Below are positions 5,098 to 20,891 of a DNA stretch of 64,000 bases, piece by piece. Location of the stretch: the NCBI RefSeq assembly GCF_000213975.1, contig NZ_GL892076.1, positions 1,200,748 through 1,264,747 of the forward strand, read 5' to 3'. The first letter of the stretch is position 1, and the number at the start of each line of letters is the position of its first letter. This stretch comes from Centipeda periodontii DSM 2778. Lineage in GTDB: Bacteria > Bacillota > Negativicutes > Selenomonadales > Selenomonadaceae. Under the pieces are notes generated by a model. That model was not told where the DNA came from. It did no database searches and saw only the letters and a program-made list of their open reading frames with translations. The position numbers and the translations under genes are program-made.

Positions 5098-5122
5098 TTT
5101 GATAATTATTTTTTTTATCAAA
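5098..5122. promoter_or_regulatory. Fur-box-like palindrome, upstream copy
   Basis: TTTGATAA (5098-5105) is mirrored by TTATCAAA (5115-5122). The 19 bases 5101-5119 match the classical Fur consensus at 14 positions by my count, although the middle is a poly-T run. It lies about 30 bases before the -10 of the TonB-dependent receptor gene. Confidence 0.45.
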
Positions 5123-5193: not shown

Positions 5194-5239
5194 ATTGTGC
5201 TTTATTAACCGTATTTCAAAGGATAGAAAGGTGTTTTCT

Positions 5240-8200
5240 ATGAAAACGAGAGCAAGGACAGCACTCACATGCGTGATACTCCTTCACATCGCGGCTTCTT
5301 CCTCTCTTGTGTTTGCGAACGAAAGTTCGGAACGAGGGGGTGACTACTCCACCGCAGATGTTCAGGTAGAGGCAGACGCGGCGAAGGAAGAGGCGAAGTA
5401 CGAGTCGCAGTCGACGACGATCATTACGGCGGAGGACATTGCGAAGAAACAGGCGAAGTCTGTCGAGGACATCATCTTTGACGAGACGGGTATGACGCGA
5501 AATATCGACGCGATGGGGCGTGTAACGGTCTCTATTCGCGGCGCAGAACCGCGTCATACACTCATCCTGATCGACGGTCAGCCCGTCATGGGTGACCTCT
5601 CAAAATACTCTGGTGCGGGCGATGAGCTGCAGCGACTTGGGACGGAGAACGTCGCACGCATCGAGATCATTCGCGGAGCGGCGAGTGCAAAGTACGGCGC
5701 GGACGCGATTGGCGGCGTCGTCAACGTCATTACGAAGGAGGCGGCGAAGAAGGCGGGACTGCAGCTGAACCTTGAGGGACGGCGCACGAAGGGCGACAGC
5801 GACGTATTCCCCTATACGAACTTCTTCCTGCGTGCGGACTCGGGGCAGGTCGGAAAGTTTCGTGTCGCGGCGTACGGCGGTAAGCGCGACATTATGCCGA
5901 TCTATGGTGAGAGGACCTTTGAGGTTGGCGAGAACGAAACGGTTCGAAATTCCCTGCGATACTACGGCGACATCAAGAACATCGGCATGACAGCCGCCTA
6001 TGACATCTCGAAGGATCACAGCCTCTCATTCAGTCTCGATCATGTGAACGAGGATATGAAGCGATATGTCAAGCGTTCCAACTCGTTTATGGAACCGGTT
6101 CAAAATTTCAAGCGGGAGATTGACCGTGACAATTATCGCCTCTCCTATGCGGGGCGCAGCGGCGCTTCGGATTGGAAGGTCGATCTCGACTACACAAAGA
6201 TGAATGAGGATGACATTACGCTCACTTCGTACTATAACAACCCAACTTATCAGGGGAAGAACTGGCTCAACTATGTTGACGACGTTATGCATAGGCAGTG
6301 GAGCATCAAGGCGTCGGCAAATACGCAGGTGAGTGACAATCATCTGCTCTCCTACGGTGTTGGTTTCACGCAGGAAAAGGGGGAGGGCAGCCGCCTCAAA
6401 AATTCGCCCAACACCTACACGCGTACCATCAATCCGTGGGACTACGACAAGAATCTTTGGACAAAACCCGGTGAAAAAGCGCCCATGTCTCTTGTCCATG
6501 ACTATGCGATGACACGCAATTCAGCAGGCATTCCGAAGTATGACAGTGATTATGAACGATATGGATATAAGAATGAAAACGGCAAAGTAGTTCTGCCCCC
6601 GTTTACCTATGAGGATTTTCAAAAATACCCGGATATTGTTGTTCCCCCGGAGATTGAGGCGAAACGCGAGGCGTTTGCCGAACAGCTTAAGGCAGACCCA
6701 CGAAACCTAGAATATCTCGTAGATCCGGATGCAAGCGCGCGCTCAATTATGAGATTCTATTATGAAGAGTGGTTGGGGCGCCACTTACGCTGGCACGGAA
6801 AACATTCATGGAGGAATTTGCAAATCGGCAGAATCAGCAGACCATCGGCACGGCAGAGATCAAGAAGCAGTATGTCTTTGTGCAGGATACATGGCAGGTC
6901 AACAAGGATACGATTCTCTCTCCGATCCTGCGCGTGGATAACAGCAATCTTTTCGGCACGCACGCGACATTCAACATCGGCATGACGCACAACATCGGCG
7001 GGAAATCGAATTATCGCTTCAAGGCGAATCTCGGCACGGGCTATACCGAGCCGGGCATGGGCGAGCTGTACTATAATTGGGAGATGTACGCCGGTGCGCC
7101 GATGGGAATCGATCGCGCACGTCTCGGCTACTACTGGGTTGGCAACCCCGATCTGAAGCCGGAGAAGTCCGTGAATTTCGACATTGGTCTTGAGGGAGAG
7201 AGCAGGAACGGTAGGGACAGCTTCCGCATCAATGCCTTCCACAATCGTATCAAGGACTATATGACGACCTATTTCACGGGCTACCTGATGGACTTTCATC
7301 CCGAACTTTCAAGTGATGGAAAATGGTGGGCGCCTACTGATATGATCTATAGCTTTAAGAACATTGGGCGGGCGGAGATCACGGGGCTTGAGGCGGAGTA
7401 CAACCATCGCTTTGACCGTCATTGGTCGACGAAGGTCGGCTATACCTTCCTCCATGCAATCAATAAGAGCGATCCGACAATGCCGCGCCGTCTGCTCGAT
7501 CGCCCGCAGCACAAGATCGACCTCGGCGTTACATACGAAAATGCGGGTTGGCGTGCAACGCTCTGGGGCAATTACTATCTCAATATGCTCGACAGCAACA
7601 GCATTGCGAACAACGGCAACTACTATGACTGGGACGGTGAGAAGTGGCACTATAACTTCCACGAGGGCGGCACGCAGACCTACGAGAAGAAGTCGTTCGG
7701 CATCTGGAACTTTATCCTGCAAAAGGATCTCGGCAAGGATTCGAGCGCCTATATTGGCGTGGACAACATCCTGAACCACCGTGACGACGACCGCGCCTTC
7801 CAAGAGCGGATGTATCGCATCGGAGTCAATCTGAAGTTCGGCGCGGACAGCGAGACACGGGATCTGACGCCGGAGGAGCGCGCGGCGCGCACGGAGACAA
7901 ATAACGCCATCTTGGAAAAAAACGCACGCTTTATTATTCCACCGTTCGATGTGGAGAAGGAACTTGGTCTGCGCGTGATCGGCGACTACCGTTGGCGTTG
8001 GAACAGCTTTACGGGGAAGGTGAAGCCGTCCGAGATGCGCGTGACGACGACGGCGAGCGTTGGCAGCGCATATAAGAACTACCTCGAAAAGGCGGAGCAC
8101 GGCTTCGAGCAGCGCCTGCGCGCAGGCGTGGATGCGCGCCTCGACGCGAATACGAACATTACCGTCCTCGGCAGTCTCGCGAGTACGGCGGGCGTCGATA

Positions 8201-10080
8201 CGGGGACAGATGTGGCACAGTCGAAGGGGCTGAATCATGCACGCCTCGACACGGCGGATGTGACGCGCCATGCAAAGGCATGGGACTTCTCCCTCGGGCG
8301 GCTGACCGAACCGATGGGTGTCACAGGTTACTACTTCGGCAAGGAGTATGACGGCGGGCGTGCCGTCTGGACGGGCAAGAGGACGCAGGTACGCCTCGGA
8401 TACGGCGATTTCCGCCGCTCGACGGGCGTCGCGGACTCGGCATATACACACGCGACGACGCAGATCTTTCTGCGCTCCGCAACGCGGGAGGAGTGGCTTG
8501 GGTACAGGGATCTCTATCCCGGCGGAATGAGATCTGGTGATATCCCTGATGTGCCGAACTATATCTCTATGATCAAAGATACCCCCGGTTTTGAAGGCTT
8601 GTATCAGCGCCTCGTAAAGGTGGGAAGCCTCGCGGAGGAGAAGCAAATCATCGACGAATATATGGATGTGATTCGTCGGAATGATCCTGACGCCTACGAG
8701 AAACTCAATCAGCATCTTTTCTCTACCGATTGGGAGCTTTCGCATGACGATTTTGTCTGGTACCGTACGACGGTTCGAGATGAGGACGGAAATATCGTGG
8801 GGGAATATCTCACACAGCCCACAGGGGATGTTTATGAAGCCCTGCATCCGCAAACAGCAATTCCGTATGAGGATCGCTTCAATCAGGAAAAGATGGAGAG
8901 TCTTGCCCGTGCTGCATGGGATGATGCCGAGCCCCAGATGGAAACGACGAAGACAGAGACACAATATGTTCGTAGTTGGGGACTTCATGAAGAGGGAGAA
9001 TATACCTTTACGGTTGATTTTTATGGCTATGGCGTTTATAACGGCAAAGAAACCATGGTGGAGTCAGATCGATCCAGTATGTGGGGGCGCGGGTATGGCG
9101 TACCGCTGAACAGCCTGAAGCCCGGCGATTTTACCACCATGACAAAGGAGGAGGCAAAAGAGCACACCATTCAATCCGTATGGGGCAAGAGTCACTATCG
9201 AAGCGTATATGGTGTGCTGCCGCTTGGCGAGGGCTTTTACACAATCGATGATGGACTTGTTGCGGCAGGCGATAAGGGAGTGTCCGAGCTCGCCCAGAGC
9301 TTTATTGGAAGTCTGACCGGTAATGATATATGGAGCCCGGAGGAAGGGAGTACGCTGCCACTGCACCTGCTCGGAAAGGAGGGCTATATCGTCCGCCAGC
9401 TCGGCACTGTGCTCGAACAGGATCGCATTCCCGCGATCAAGCAGGCGGCATATATGCAGGTGCGCCACGAGGTTATGCCGAATCTTGGCGTTGCGGCGTT
9501 CTATCTGCGCTCGCTCGGCGGCAACTCGCATACGTTCCACGCGGCGAACGGCACGGGGAATGATGTCGATACGTTCGACACGCTCGCGAATGTCGTCGGT
9601 GTCGGTGCGCGCTACCGCCTCACGAAGAACGCCGCACTTTCGTTCGACTACGGCGCGAACTTCACGGACTTCGGACGCTATATGAACGGTCACACGCGCT
9701 ATGAGCATACGTCGGGCACATCGACGTTTGACATCAAGGGACGTGAGCGCGGCAATACGCCGACGTTCTGGGTCATGCGCCTCGATGTCGGTCAGGCGGA
9801 TATGGATGTCGCGGGCAGTTGGAACGCGTTCATTGACTACAAGCGGTTCGAGCACGGCTCGTTCTTTGGCGGCAATGGGACGGAATCTCTGCCCGACCGC
9901 TACCTCGACGGCATCAAGAGCTTTACCATCGGTGCGGGCTATGTCCCCGTGCAGAACCTCATGGTCGAGGCGTTCTACACGTTTGGTGCGAAGGGTATCA
10001 ATACGCGTGATACGCTCTATGGACCGGAGCATTTCCACCTCGGTGACTATGCGCGTCTGCAAGTGACGTATCAGTTCTGA
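5240..10080 (+). pseudogene. TonB-dependent receptor fused to a second outer-membrane barrel, interrupted by a frameshift
   Basis: Restoring one base in the G-run at 6775-6778 gives a continuous 1613-residue protein. The ATG at 5240 follows AAAGGTG and begins a signal peptide ending near residue 26. A classical plug follows (about residues 57-170, with SIRG, ILIDGQPV and the KYGADAIGGVVNVI end motif), then a receptor barrel whose last strand ends in NLKF at residue 867. Instead of stopping, the chain runs on for some 745 residues that look like a second porin-type barrel and end in VTYQF, a terminal-Phe signature. As read, the first frame runs out at 6985 after about 70 nonsense codons, and the second frame is open from 6769. 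The frameshift may be a real mutation or a sequencing error. Likely role is uptake of an iron complex or similar nutrient, inferred from the Fur-like sites; the ligand is unknown. Confidence 0.78.
6769..10080 (+). CDS. C-terminal part of the receptor: rest of first barrel plus porin-like second barrel
   Basis: This open stretch holds everything downstream of the frameshift and would be called as a separate gene by most tools, although it has no signal peptide or good ribosome site of its own. Up to about 7839 it is TonB-receptor barrel (PDLKPEKSVNFDIG is the usual late-barrel motif; the last strand reads RIGVNLKF). A charged linker rich in Glu and Arg follows (7840-7960). The remainder alternates amphipathic strands such as AWDFSLGRL and VRLGYGDFRRSTG with a long less barrel-like insert (about 8490-9330), and closes with ARLQVTYQF. 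The porin-like half resembles Negativicutes outer-membrane porins in style; I could not name a family. Confidence 0.6.
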   Translation: MVGAPLTLARKTFMEEFANRQNQQTIGTAEIKKQYVFVQDTWQVNKDTILSPILRVDNSNLFGTHATFNIGMTHNIGGKSNYRFKANLGTGYTEPGMGELYYNWEMYAGAPMGIDRARLGYYWVGNPDLKPEKSVNFDIGLEGESRNGRDSFRINAFHNRIKDYMTTYFTGYLMDFHPELSSDGKWWAPTDMIYSFKNIGRAEITGLEAEYNHRFDRHWSTKVGYTFLHAINKSDPTMPRRLLDRPQHKIDLGVTYENAGWRATLWGNYYLNMLDSNSIANNGNYYDWDGEKWHYNFHEGGTQTYEKKSFGIWNFILQKDLGKDSSAYIGVDNILNHRDDDRAFQERMYRIGVNLKFGADSETRDLTPEERAARTETNNAILEKNARFIIPPFDVEKELGLRVIGDYRWRWNSFTGKVKPSEMRVTTTASVGSAYKNYLEKAEHGFEQRLRAGVDARLDANTNITVLGSLASTAGVDTGTDVAQSKGLNHARLDTADVTRHAKAWDFSLGRLTEPMGVTGYYFGKEYDGGRAVWTGKRTQVRLGYGDFRRSTGVADSAYTHATTQIFLRSATREEWLGYRDLYPGGMRSGDIPDVPNYISMIKDTPGFEGLYQRLVKVGSLAEEKQIIDEYMDVIRRNDPDAYEKLNQHLFSTDWELSHDDFVWYRTTVRDEDGNIVGEYLTQPTGDVYEALHPQTAIPYEDRFNQEKMESLARAAWDDAEPQMETTKTETQYVRSWGLHEEGEYTFTVDFYGYGVYNGKETMVESDRSSMWGRGYGVPLNSLKPGDFTTMTKEEAKEHTIQSVWGKSHYRSVYGVLPLGEGFYTIDDGLVAAGDKGVSELAQSFIGSLTGNDIWSPEEGSTLPLHLLGKEGYIVRQLGTVLEQDRIPAIKQAAYMQVRHEVMPNLGVAAFYLRSLGGNSHTFHAANGTGNDVDTFDTLANVVGVGARYRLTKNAALSFDYGANFTDFGRYMNGHTRYEHTSGTSTFDIKGRERGNTPTFWVMRLDVGQADMDVAGSWNAFIDYKRFEHGSFFGGNGTESLPDRYLDGIKSFTIGAGYVPVQNLMVEAFYTFGAKGINTRDTLYGPEHFHLGDYARLQVTYQF

Positions 10081-20264: not shown

Positions 20265-20891
20265 ATGCGTGTAAAGATGTGCGGGATGAAAACAACTACA
20301 ATGGCTCGTGCGGCAGAGGCGGCAGGTGCGGACTACGTCGGCTTTATCTTTGCAGAAAAGAGTCGGCGCTATGTCGCACCCGAGATGGCGCGCGAGATTG
20401 CGCGGCAGATCCATCGCGTGAAAAAGGTCGGCGTCTTTGTCGATGCCCCGCCGGATGAGGTGAATGCCATTGCCGCGCGCGTCGGTCTGGATTATGTGCA
20501 GCTGCATGGGCATGAGAGCGCGGAGATGGCGAAAGCATCGGCGTATCCCGTCATCAAGGCGTATCGCTACGGCGATGATTTCAGCGTGGATGCAGCGAAC
20601 GCCTATCCCGCCGAGCTCATCCTGATCGACAGCTATGTGCAGGGCGCGGCGGGCGGCACGGGAATGACATTTCGTTGGCAGGAGGCGGCGCGGGAGATCA
20701 CGCGCGTCACGAAGCCTGTCCTCATCGCGGGCGGCATTACGGCAGAGAATGTGGGCGAGGCGGCGGAGATTTTCCATCCCTTCGGTGTCGATGTTTCGGG
20801 GGGGCTTGAGGAGAATGGTGAGAAGTCCGAGGAGAAAATCAGAGCGTTTATGGAAGCGGTACAATTTGACAAATGCGCCATCCTCCACTAG
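20265..20891 (+). CDS. trpF: Phosphoribosylanthranilate isomerase
   Basis: Third step of tryptophan synthesis, an Amadori isomerisation. The 208-residue TIM barrel begins VKMCGMK, whose Cys is the usual general base, and has LILIDSY with the catalytic Asp and the phosphate-binding LIAGGIT and DVSGGLEE loops. GGAGGG precedes the ATG at 20265; a longer reading would run into the promoter. It is first in a trpF-C-B-A operon, the reverse of the common C-F order. Confidence 0.95.
   Translation: MRVKMCGMKTTTMARAAEAAGADYVGFIFAEKSRRYVAPEMAREIARQIHRVKKVGVFVDAPPDEVNAIAARVGLDYVQLHGHESAEMAKASAYPVIKAYRYGDDFSVDAANAYPAELILIDSYVQGAAGGTGMTFRWQEAAREITRVTKPVLIAGGITAENVGEAAEIFHPFGVDVSGGLEENGEKSEEKIRAFMEAVQFDKCAILH

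Follow-up and report, generated by a model that had tools for sequence, protein, structure and literature searches.

In Centipeda periodontii DSM 2778 and other Negativicutes a TonB-dependent receptor (TBDR) and an OmpM-like porin are encoded in one polypeptide. Judged from the sequences this fusion is real, because two paralogues in the same genome each form one open frame, and structure prediction supports two complete outer-membrane barrels in one chain, a reading that rests on the single long frames and on models made separately for the two halves. To our knowledge, almost all outer-membrane barrels of solved structure come one per chain. In the present case, an energised receptor of 22 strands and a porin of 16 stay fused across several Negativicutes families; many of the host bacteria are human oral, vaginal or gut residents, and environmental bacteria are represented as well. 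The arrangement raises the question of how some 38 strands of a single chain are folded by the BAM machine, and it would place a receptor, a presumed co-receptor, a phase switch and antigenic exchange all on one gene.

Multibarrel proteins of the outer membrane have already been described as a class (Solan et al. 2021, as cited in PMC11494523). One of them, GfcD, likewise has two complete barrels in one chain, but these have 12 and 13 strands and serve polysaccharide export, whereas a TonB-gated 22-strand receptor and a 16-strand porin are joined here (PMC11494523). The published outer-membrane proteome of Veillonella parvula lists TonB family proteins, and the word 'fusion' is absent from its main text (PMC5491611). 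A literature search, in which subscription papers were thinly covered, found no report of a TBDR–porin pairing, which suggests that, while multibarrel proteins are already known, this particular combination may be without a description.

Gene layout and conservation of the fusion

The features of the gene are given below by their positions in the window, i.e., the whole 64-kb stretch of DNA that was analysed.

5101..5119, + strand: Fur-box-like site 5' of the window gene (15 of 19 positions against the consensus; suggestive only)
5240..5317, + strand: signal peptide (MKTRARTALTCVILLHIAASSSLVFA), read from the sequence with the cleavage site placed by eye; gene start ATG at 5240
5336..5340, + strand: G5, read from the sequence, where some relatives have G8-G13 (paralogue L039: G7)
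5351..5374, + strand: Ton-box-like segment TADVQVEA, conserved in the alignment; named as a Ton box by eye
5405..5719, + strand: TBDR plug domain PF07715 (E 3.1e-22)
5720..6800, + strand: TBDR barrel part 1, first frame; aligns with long-frame relatives to about nt 6802
6799..7839, + strand: TBDR barrel part 2, second frame, with the end VNLKF (PF00593, E 3.7e-37)
7840..7965, + strand: charged linker of about 40 residues, a helix in the predicted model
7966..8409, + strand: porin barrel strands 1-7, from model and alignment; loop 3 at 8311-8346 highly conserved
8410..9441, + strand: porin loop 4 with an extracellular hypervariable insert of about 300 residues, core 8479-9387, from model and alignment
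9442..10077, + strand: porin barrel strands 8-16 with a terminal Phe, from model and alignment; loop 7 at 9850-9912 highly conserved
10078-10080, + strand: stop codon of the window gene

The initial annotation had described a complete receptor whose chain runs on into a second domain, and both points stand: signal peptide, plug (PF07715) and barrel (PF00593) are followed by the VNLKF end at nt 7839, and beyond it lie the linker and about 745 further residues, with a terminal Phe at 10077. That all of this is a single chain holds for the two paralogues, each of them one open frame, but not for the window copy as it reads. The latter is spread over two frames, 5195-6985 and 6769-10080, with a single slip between them near nt 6,800 that falls within a variable loop of the receptor. 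Long-frame relatives align with the upstream frame as far as nt 6802 and with the downstream one from nt 6799, no further stops being present; the 1,613-residue chain of the initial annotation is a repaired reading across the two. Because its reading frame breaks at this point, the window copy would be either an inactive copy or the product of a sequencing error near nt 6,800. A programmed frameshift was rejected: whole relatives are in frame there, and no classic slippery heptamer was seen by eye.

The two whole paralogues of C. periodontii have 1,653 codons (L039) and 1,658 codons (L040). The genome holds 18 plug domains, three of them in the double-barrel family (including the window copy), while the remaining 15 belong to frames of 635-842 codons. 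The same fusion was looked for in other Negativicutes, and it was found there, kept across several families. The porin half has matches in 12 of the 14 genomes of the genus (own included) and in 77 of the 380 genomes of the class. Close relatives (E <= 1e-50; hand count) occur in 42 of the 380, and as at most two candidates were scored per genome, copies are under-counted. The frames that hold these close matches span 1,104 codons or more, with the exception of three places, with 811 codons (G332), 797 codons (G334) and a 103-codon fragment (G359); two rows contain one internal stop each (G332:C129 and G339:C1). The 811- and 797-codon frames, equated by equal frame length with loci L084 and L124, appear to be frame-broken genes with plug DNA upstream. 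Weak matches in the class (E about 1e-16 to 1e-3) are mostly stand-alone frames of 400-600 codons, and we take these for ordinary porins.

In named genomes, a scan identified 71 loci, including some from oral Selenomonas, Veillonella, Megasphaera, Anaeroglobus, Colibacter and a Sporomusaceae MAG. In 45 of the 71 a single frame of 1,400 codons or more extends to the end of the match, the other 26 being broken, contig-cut or fragments, and plug DNA is present in 63. The alignment comprised 54 distinct frames of no fewer than 1,400 codons, 52 from 46 named loci and two from the own genome; two of these begin at a contig edge (L067, L098), one breaks before its end (L110), and four are out of frame with their own signal peptide (L066, L085, L118, L125). 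Divergence of the receptor half parallels that of the porin half among the 54 proteins (Spearman 0.82; the 1,431 pairs are not mutually independent). Trees of the halves, compared by eye and with long branches flagged as unsafe, are broadly similar, with Selenomonadaceae and Veillonellaceae intermixed. Both observations are as expected if one fusion has been inherited and exchanged as a unit.

Had the two halves always been separate genes in homologues, the notion of a fused protein would have fallen, and no close homologues in the form of separate receptor and porin genes were seen among the class genomes or the named loci. This possibility was rejected. In nine weak stand-alone loci (L021-L029, 2.3-3.5 kb each) the family profile found no receptor at E <= 1. 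Eight of the 71 named loci have no plug match that passed the filter: three are internally deleted copies keeping pieces of both ends (L082, L095, L131), one has receptor DNA that begins at a contig edge (L093), and four show a C-terminal piece only (L096, L119, L120, L132), L096 and L119 lying near a contig edge.

One draft genome, Megasphaera cerevisiae (LEKT contigs), accounts for 16 of the 71 loci, and many of its copies are broken, internally deleted (L082, L095, L131) or contig-cut near the conserved 5' part; they may form a reservoir of silent sequences on which recombination could draw. Two species-level genomes carry 1,589-codon fused genes of equal length and with equal upstream DNA as far as shown (L041 5833-10602 and L044 4627-9396), which suggests recent exchange or close kinship.

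Predicted structure of the two halves

The porin half of the window copy (745 aa, alignment of 21) was modelled with a mean pLDDT of 77.4 and a pTM of 0.65. Its best match among solved structures is OmpM1 (8bym_A, Z 26.9, rmsd 2.7, 285 aligned, model 41-745), other porins reaching about Z 19-21. Counted by hand, the half has 16 strands, two further strands being taken as a loop-4 hairpin, and in the model long extracellular loops alternate with short periplasmic turns. It is thus predicted to form a complete, closed 16-strand porin barrel. Porin_5 (PF16930) scores 20.1 bits on the window half against a Pfam cut-off of 22, and E <= 0.1 is reached by 20 of the 21 members (best 5.3e-8); a PDB sequence search with the profile of this half gave a best match of E 0.12. 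Within this half, conservation is among the highest in loops 3 and 7, whose positions correspond to the eyelet loops of OmpM1.

The receptor half was predicted from the paralogue L039 (865 aa, alignment of 20) with a pLDDT of 62.6 and a pTM of 0.61, the plug being poorly modelled. The model has 22 strands by hand count, and BtuB (2guf) aligns with it over 464 residues (Z 22.5, model 45-865), up to the last residue; Cir was the best match in both Foldseek and sequence searches. In addition to the plug domain and TBDR barrel, a segment resembling TADVQVEA before the plug, named as a Ton box by eye, is conserved among relatives. A hypervariable receptor loop, loop A, lies at about residues 470-577 of L039, with a mean identity of 20% in a dereplicated set of 35. 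Substrate profiles do not place the receptor in one class: TIGR01786 (hemoglobin/transferrin/lactoferrin) gives 131.2 and 122.4 bits for the receptor halves of the two whole paralogues against a cut-off of 323.75, and other substrate-class profiles score similarly.

The initial annotation had proposed two outer-membrane barrels per chain, or a barrel plus a large surface assembly. The first is borne out in prediction, in which both halves are complete, and by a fusion conserved across several families. The second holds in part, since loop 4 does contain a variable extracellular domain of about 300 residues, in addition to the predicted second barrel. The idea that residues 868-1613 complete the first barrel was rejected on the models, as the TBDR half has 22 strands of its own and the C-terminal half closes alone. 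A linker of about 40 residues can join the halves, because the receptor C-terminus and the first porin strand should both be periplasmic.

These features set the protein beside several known systems. It shares the plug, 22-strand barrel, Ton-box-like segment and aromatic C-terminus with Cir, FepA/PfeA and BtuB (PDB 9nn6, 2hdf, 5nc3, 2guf), but those receptors stop at the barrel whereas the double-barrel receptors run on into a second. With OmpM1 of V. parvula, whose host belongs to the same bacterial class, it shares the 16-strand porin fold and the conserved places of the inward loops 3 and 7 (PDB 8bym; PMC10628300). In contrast to OmpM1, loop 4 here has the insert of about 300 residues, and the linker has about 40 residues. 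In OmpM an N-terminal SLH domain on a periplasmic coiled-coil stalk tethers the outer membrane, and here a complete TBDR stands in that place; no SLH match was obtained in 21 C-terminal halves or in the window receptor pieces.

Loop 4, poly-G tracts and neighbouring genes

The insert between porin strands 7 and 8 forms extracellular loop 4, which is 240 to 417 residues long across the 54 proteins. Its mean pairwise identity is 25%, whereas the barrel parts on either side reach 43% and 57% and the receptor 54%. In six of the 1,431 pairs the flanks exceed 75% identity and loop 4 falls below 45%, the change being abrupt; L039 and L062, for example, share 89% of one flank, 25% of loop 4 and 93% of the other flank. 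This suggests that loop 4 is swapped like a cassette between near-identical barrels.

In the dereplicated set of 35, loop-4 identity tracks that of receptor loop A once the cores are controlled for (partial r 0.24, a value equalled or exceeded in about 2 of 999 permutations), although relatedness can inflate such partial Mantel-type correlations. Over 12 TBDR windows the partial r with loop 4 ranged from -0.02 to 0.36, five windows giving 0.24-0.36, compared with -0.12 to 0.06 over five linker and porin windows. Because several receptor windows correlate, loop 4 is linked more broadly to the receptor half and not to loop A alone, which fits a loop 4 that would work together with the receptor.

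Poly-G tracts are the second variable element. In 74 loci (1.05 Mb) there are 15 G/C runs of at least 8, and 13 of them lie in the signal-peptide or leader part of the fused gene. Twelve are situated in the stretch from signal peptide to plug, 62-71 nt ahead of the plug anchor, and the thirteenth in the first codons of the signal peptide (L110); the other two lie inside the gene of L091 and outside the gene in L126. The former, a G9 at L091 6671 (Colibacter massiliensis), sits well 3' of the usual place. The tract is in frame with the signal peptide in three of the twelve (L071, L081, L107) and out of frame in eight (L066, L068, L069, L085, L092, L118, L124, L125), one being undecidable at a contig edge (L065); additional downstream frame breaks occur in five (L068, L069, L081, L092, L124), and draft assemblies can miscount poly-G tracts. 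Among closely similar leaders, the tract region has 10 bases in the in-frame alleles L127, L060, L058 and L107, and 11 bases in the out-of-frame S. infelix allele L125 (the same gene fetched as L053). A 5' coding poly-G tract of in-frame and out-of-frame lengths occurs in some relatives and not in the window copy, which has G5, and most of the 73 copies have no G run of at least 8. The sole G/C run of at least 7 in the window is a G7 at 20798-20804.

Slipped-strand phase variation is described for meningococcal hmbR and hpuA (PMC3786947), and the tract lengths here have the pattern of such a mechanism, from which we infer switching in the cell. A literature search on phase variation in these bacteria found nothing.

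The genetic neighbourhood differs between lineages. Genes for fumarate hydratase and succinate dehydrogenase/fumarate reductase, named by eye from their translations, precede the window copy, and no adjoining transport partner was seen by eye. Behind L039, overlapping its end, lie a CbiQ-like frame, a double ABC ATPase and a Trep_Strep/MptD S-component (L039 3690-6603, i.e., about 1.592-1.595 Mb on C1 of the own genome); the S-component scores 116.8 bits against 76.45 for TIGR02185. This ECF module adjoins one subgroup of copies only, the trio being present also beside L063, L075 and L076 and its cut start beside L062. S-components of the Trep_Strep type are, we presume, linked to heme; a literature search for Trep_Strep together with heme gave no result. 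An ECF transporter importing heme is known (PMC7299338).

In eight Veillonella loci an AraC-type regulator lies upstream and ExbB and ExbD downstream, followed by a third gene that has no Pfam match and is TonB-like by eye. L109 adjoins a PBP2-FecCD transporter and another TBDR, and other copies adjoin unrelated genes, e.g., glycyl-tRNA synthetase. Fur-like boxes, scored against a 19-nt consensus, reach at least 14 of 19 positions in 32 of 65 upstream regions, compared with 13 of 183 controls and 9 of 78 low-GC controls. Neighbours and Fur-like boxes together would fit iron or heme uptake.

Proposed function and alternatives

We give an even chance to the reading that the protein is a TonB-gated importer carrying its own membrane-anchored capture arm, phase-variable in some members and with its exposed domains swapped. 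The N-terminal 22-strand TBDR would bind a scarce, probably iron-containing ligand, i.e., heme, a hemoprotein or an iron chelate. Loop 4 would capture a host or community carrier of iron or heme and pass the ligand to the receptor mouth, from where TonB energy would drive its import through the TBDR. The 16-strand OmpM-like barrel would mainly be a second membrane anchor and spacer, holding loop 4 beside the receptor mouth. In some members the poly-G tract after the signal peptide would switch expression, and exposed domains would be exchanged between gene copies, fitting surface structures under immune or phage pressure. Ligand class, capture role and actual switching are all inferred. Several findings count against this reading: the conserved loops at the eyelet place, which an anchor alone would not need; TIGR01786 scores far below cut-off; a window copy that is broken and has G5; the lack of a G run of at least 8 in most copies; the modest confidence of the TBDR model; the possible inflation by relatedness of the loop-4 correlations, which extend to several receptor windows; and an ECF module that adjoins a single subgroup of copies. 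As a general design, a two-barrel receptor with a porin co-receptor on the chain, loop-4 cassette exchange and poly-G switching is put forward tentatively.

The loop-4 domain would thus be a built-in co-receptor, doing a job done elsewhere by separate lipoproteins such as HpuA or the co-receptor TbpB. HmbR and HpuAB of Neisseria meningitidis resemble the double-barrel receptor in TonB-dependent uptake and in poly-G tracts within the reading frame (PMC3786947). HpuAB also pairs a TBDR with a surface co-receptor, but HpuA is a separate lipoprotein, whereas the putative co-receptor here is a porin barrel on the same chain (PMC3786947). HmbR and HpuAB are hemoglobin receptors, whereas for the double-barrel receptor hemoglobin binding and actual switching are putative. 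Should the porin part form trimers like OmpM1, a six-barrel uptake platform would result, with three receptors round one porin trimer.

It is possible, though rather unlikely, that the OmpM-like barrel is a working diffusion pore, admitting small companion solutes or releasing a by-product, e.g., an iron-free chelator, beside the receptor. Such a pore is favoured by the conservation of loops 3 and 7, the eyelet-forming loops of OmpM1 (PMC10628300), and by the match of this half to the OmpM1 barrel, a proven channel. However, a hypervariable, swapped loop 4 would be superfluous for a pore, and the conservation of the two loops may only mirror the fold. General porins are present in Selenomonas. 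V. parvula, too, already has general porins (PMC10628300). The leaky porin suggested by the initial annotation is not favoured, because the surface domain varies most and because loop 4 tracks the receptor over its own barrel.

An improbable alternative puts surface variation first, the second barrel displaying a variable decoy or adhesin domain with transport secondary. Poly-G tracts, a cassette-like loop 4, tandem copies and the many copies in Megasphaera cerevisiae and Anaeroglobus geminatus would suit it. However, the plug, the Ton-box-like segment and the barrel have all kept their conservation, and several lineages have ExbB/ExbD or transporter genes alongside; transport is for these reasons probably under selection. 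We hold it very improbable that cleavage of the folded chain yields two separate proteins: the linker between the halves is charged and variable, but no conserved cleavage motif was seen in its alignment by eye, and the halves are kept in one long frame in 54 copies. An annotation or assembly artefact, in which two neighbouring genes are read as one, or a chance joining, is refuted in spite of the frame change that the window copy itself requires, given the open frames of two paralogues, the many independent assemblies with one open frame, the 42 of 380 genomes and the 54 long frames.

The importer with a capture arm can be approached in V. parvula SKV38, whose outer membrane has already been studied (PMC10628300). 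Its locus (L087 2965-16166) comprises an AraC-type regulator, two tandem full-length fused genes, ExbB, ExbD and a TonB-like gene, and because the two tandem copies lie beside ExbB and ExbD, the function is directly testable there.
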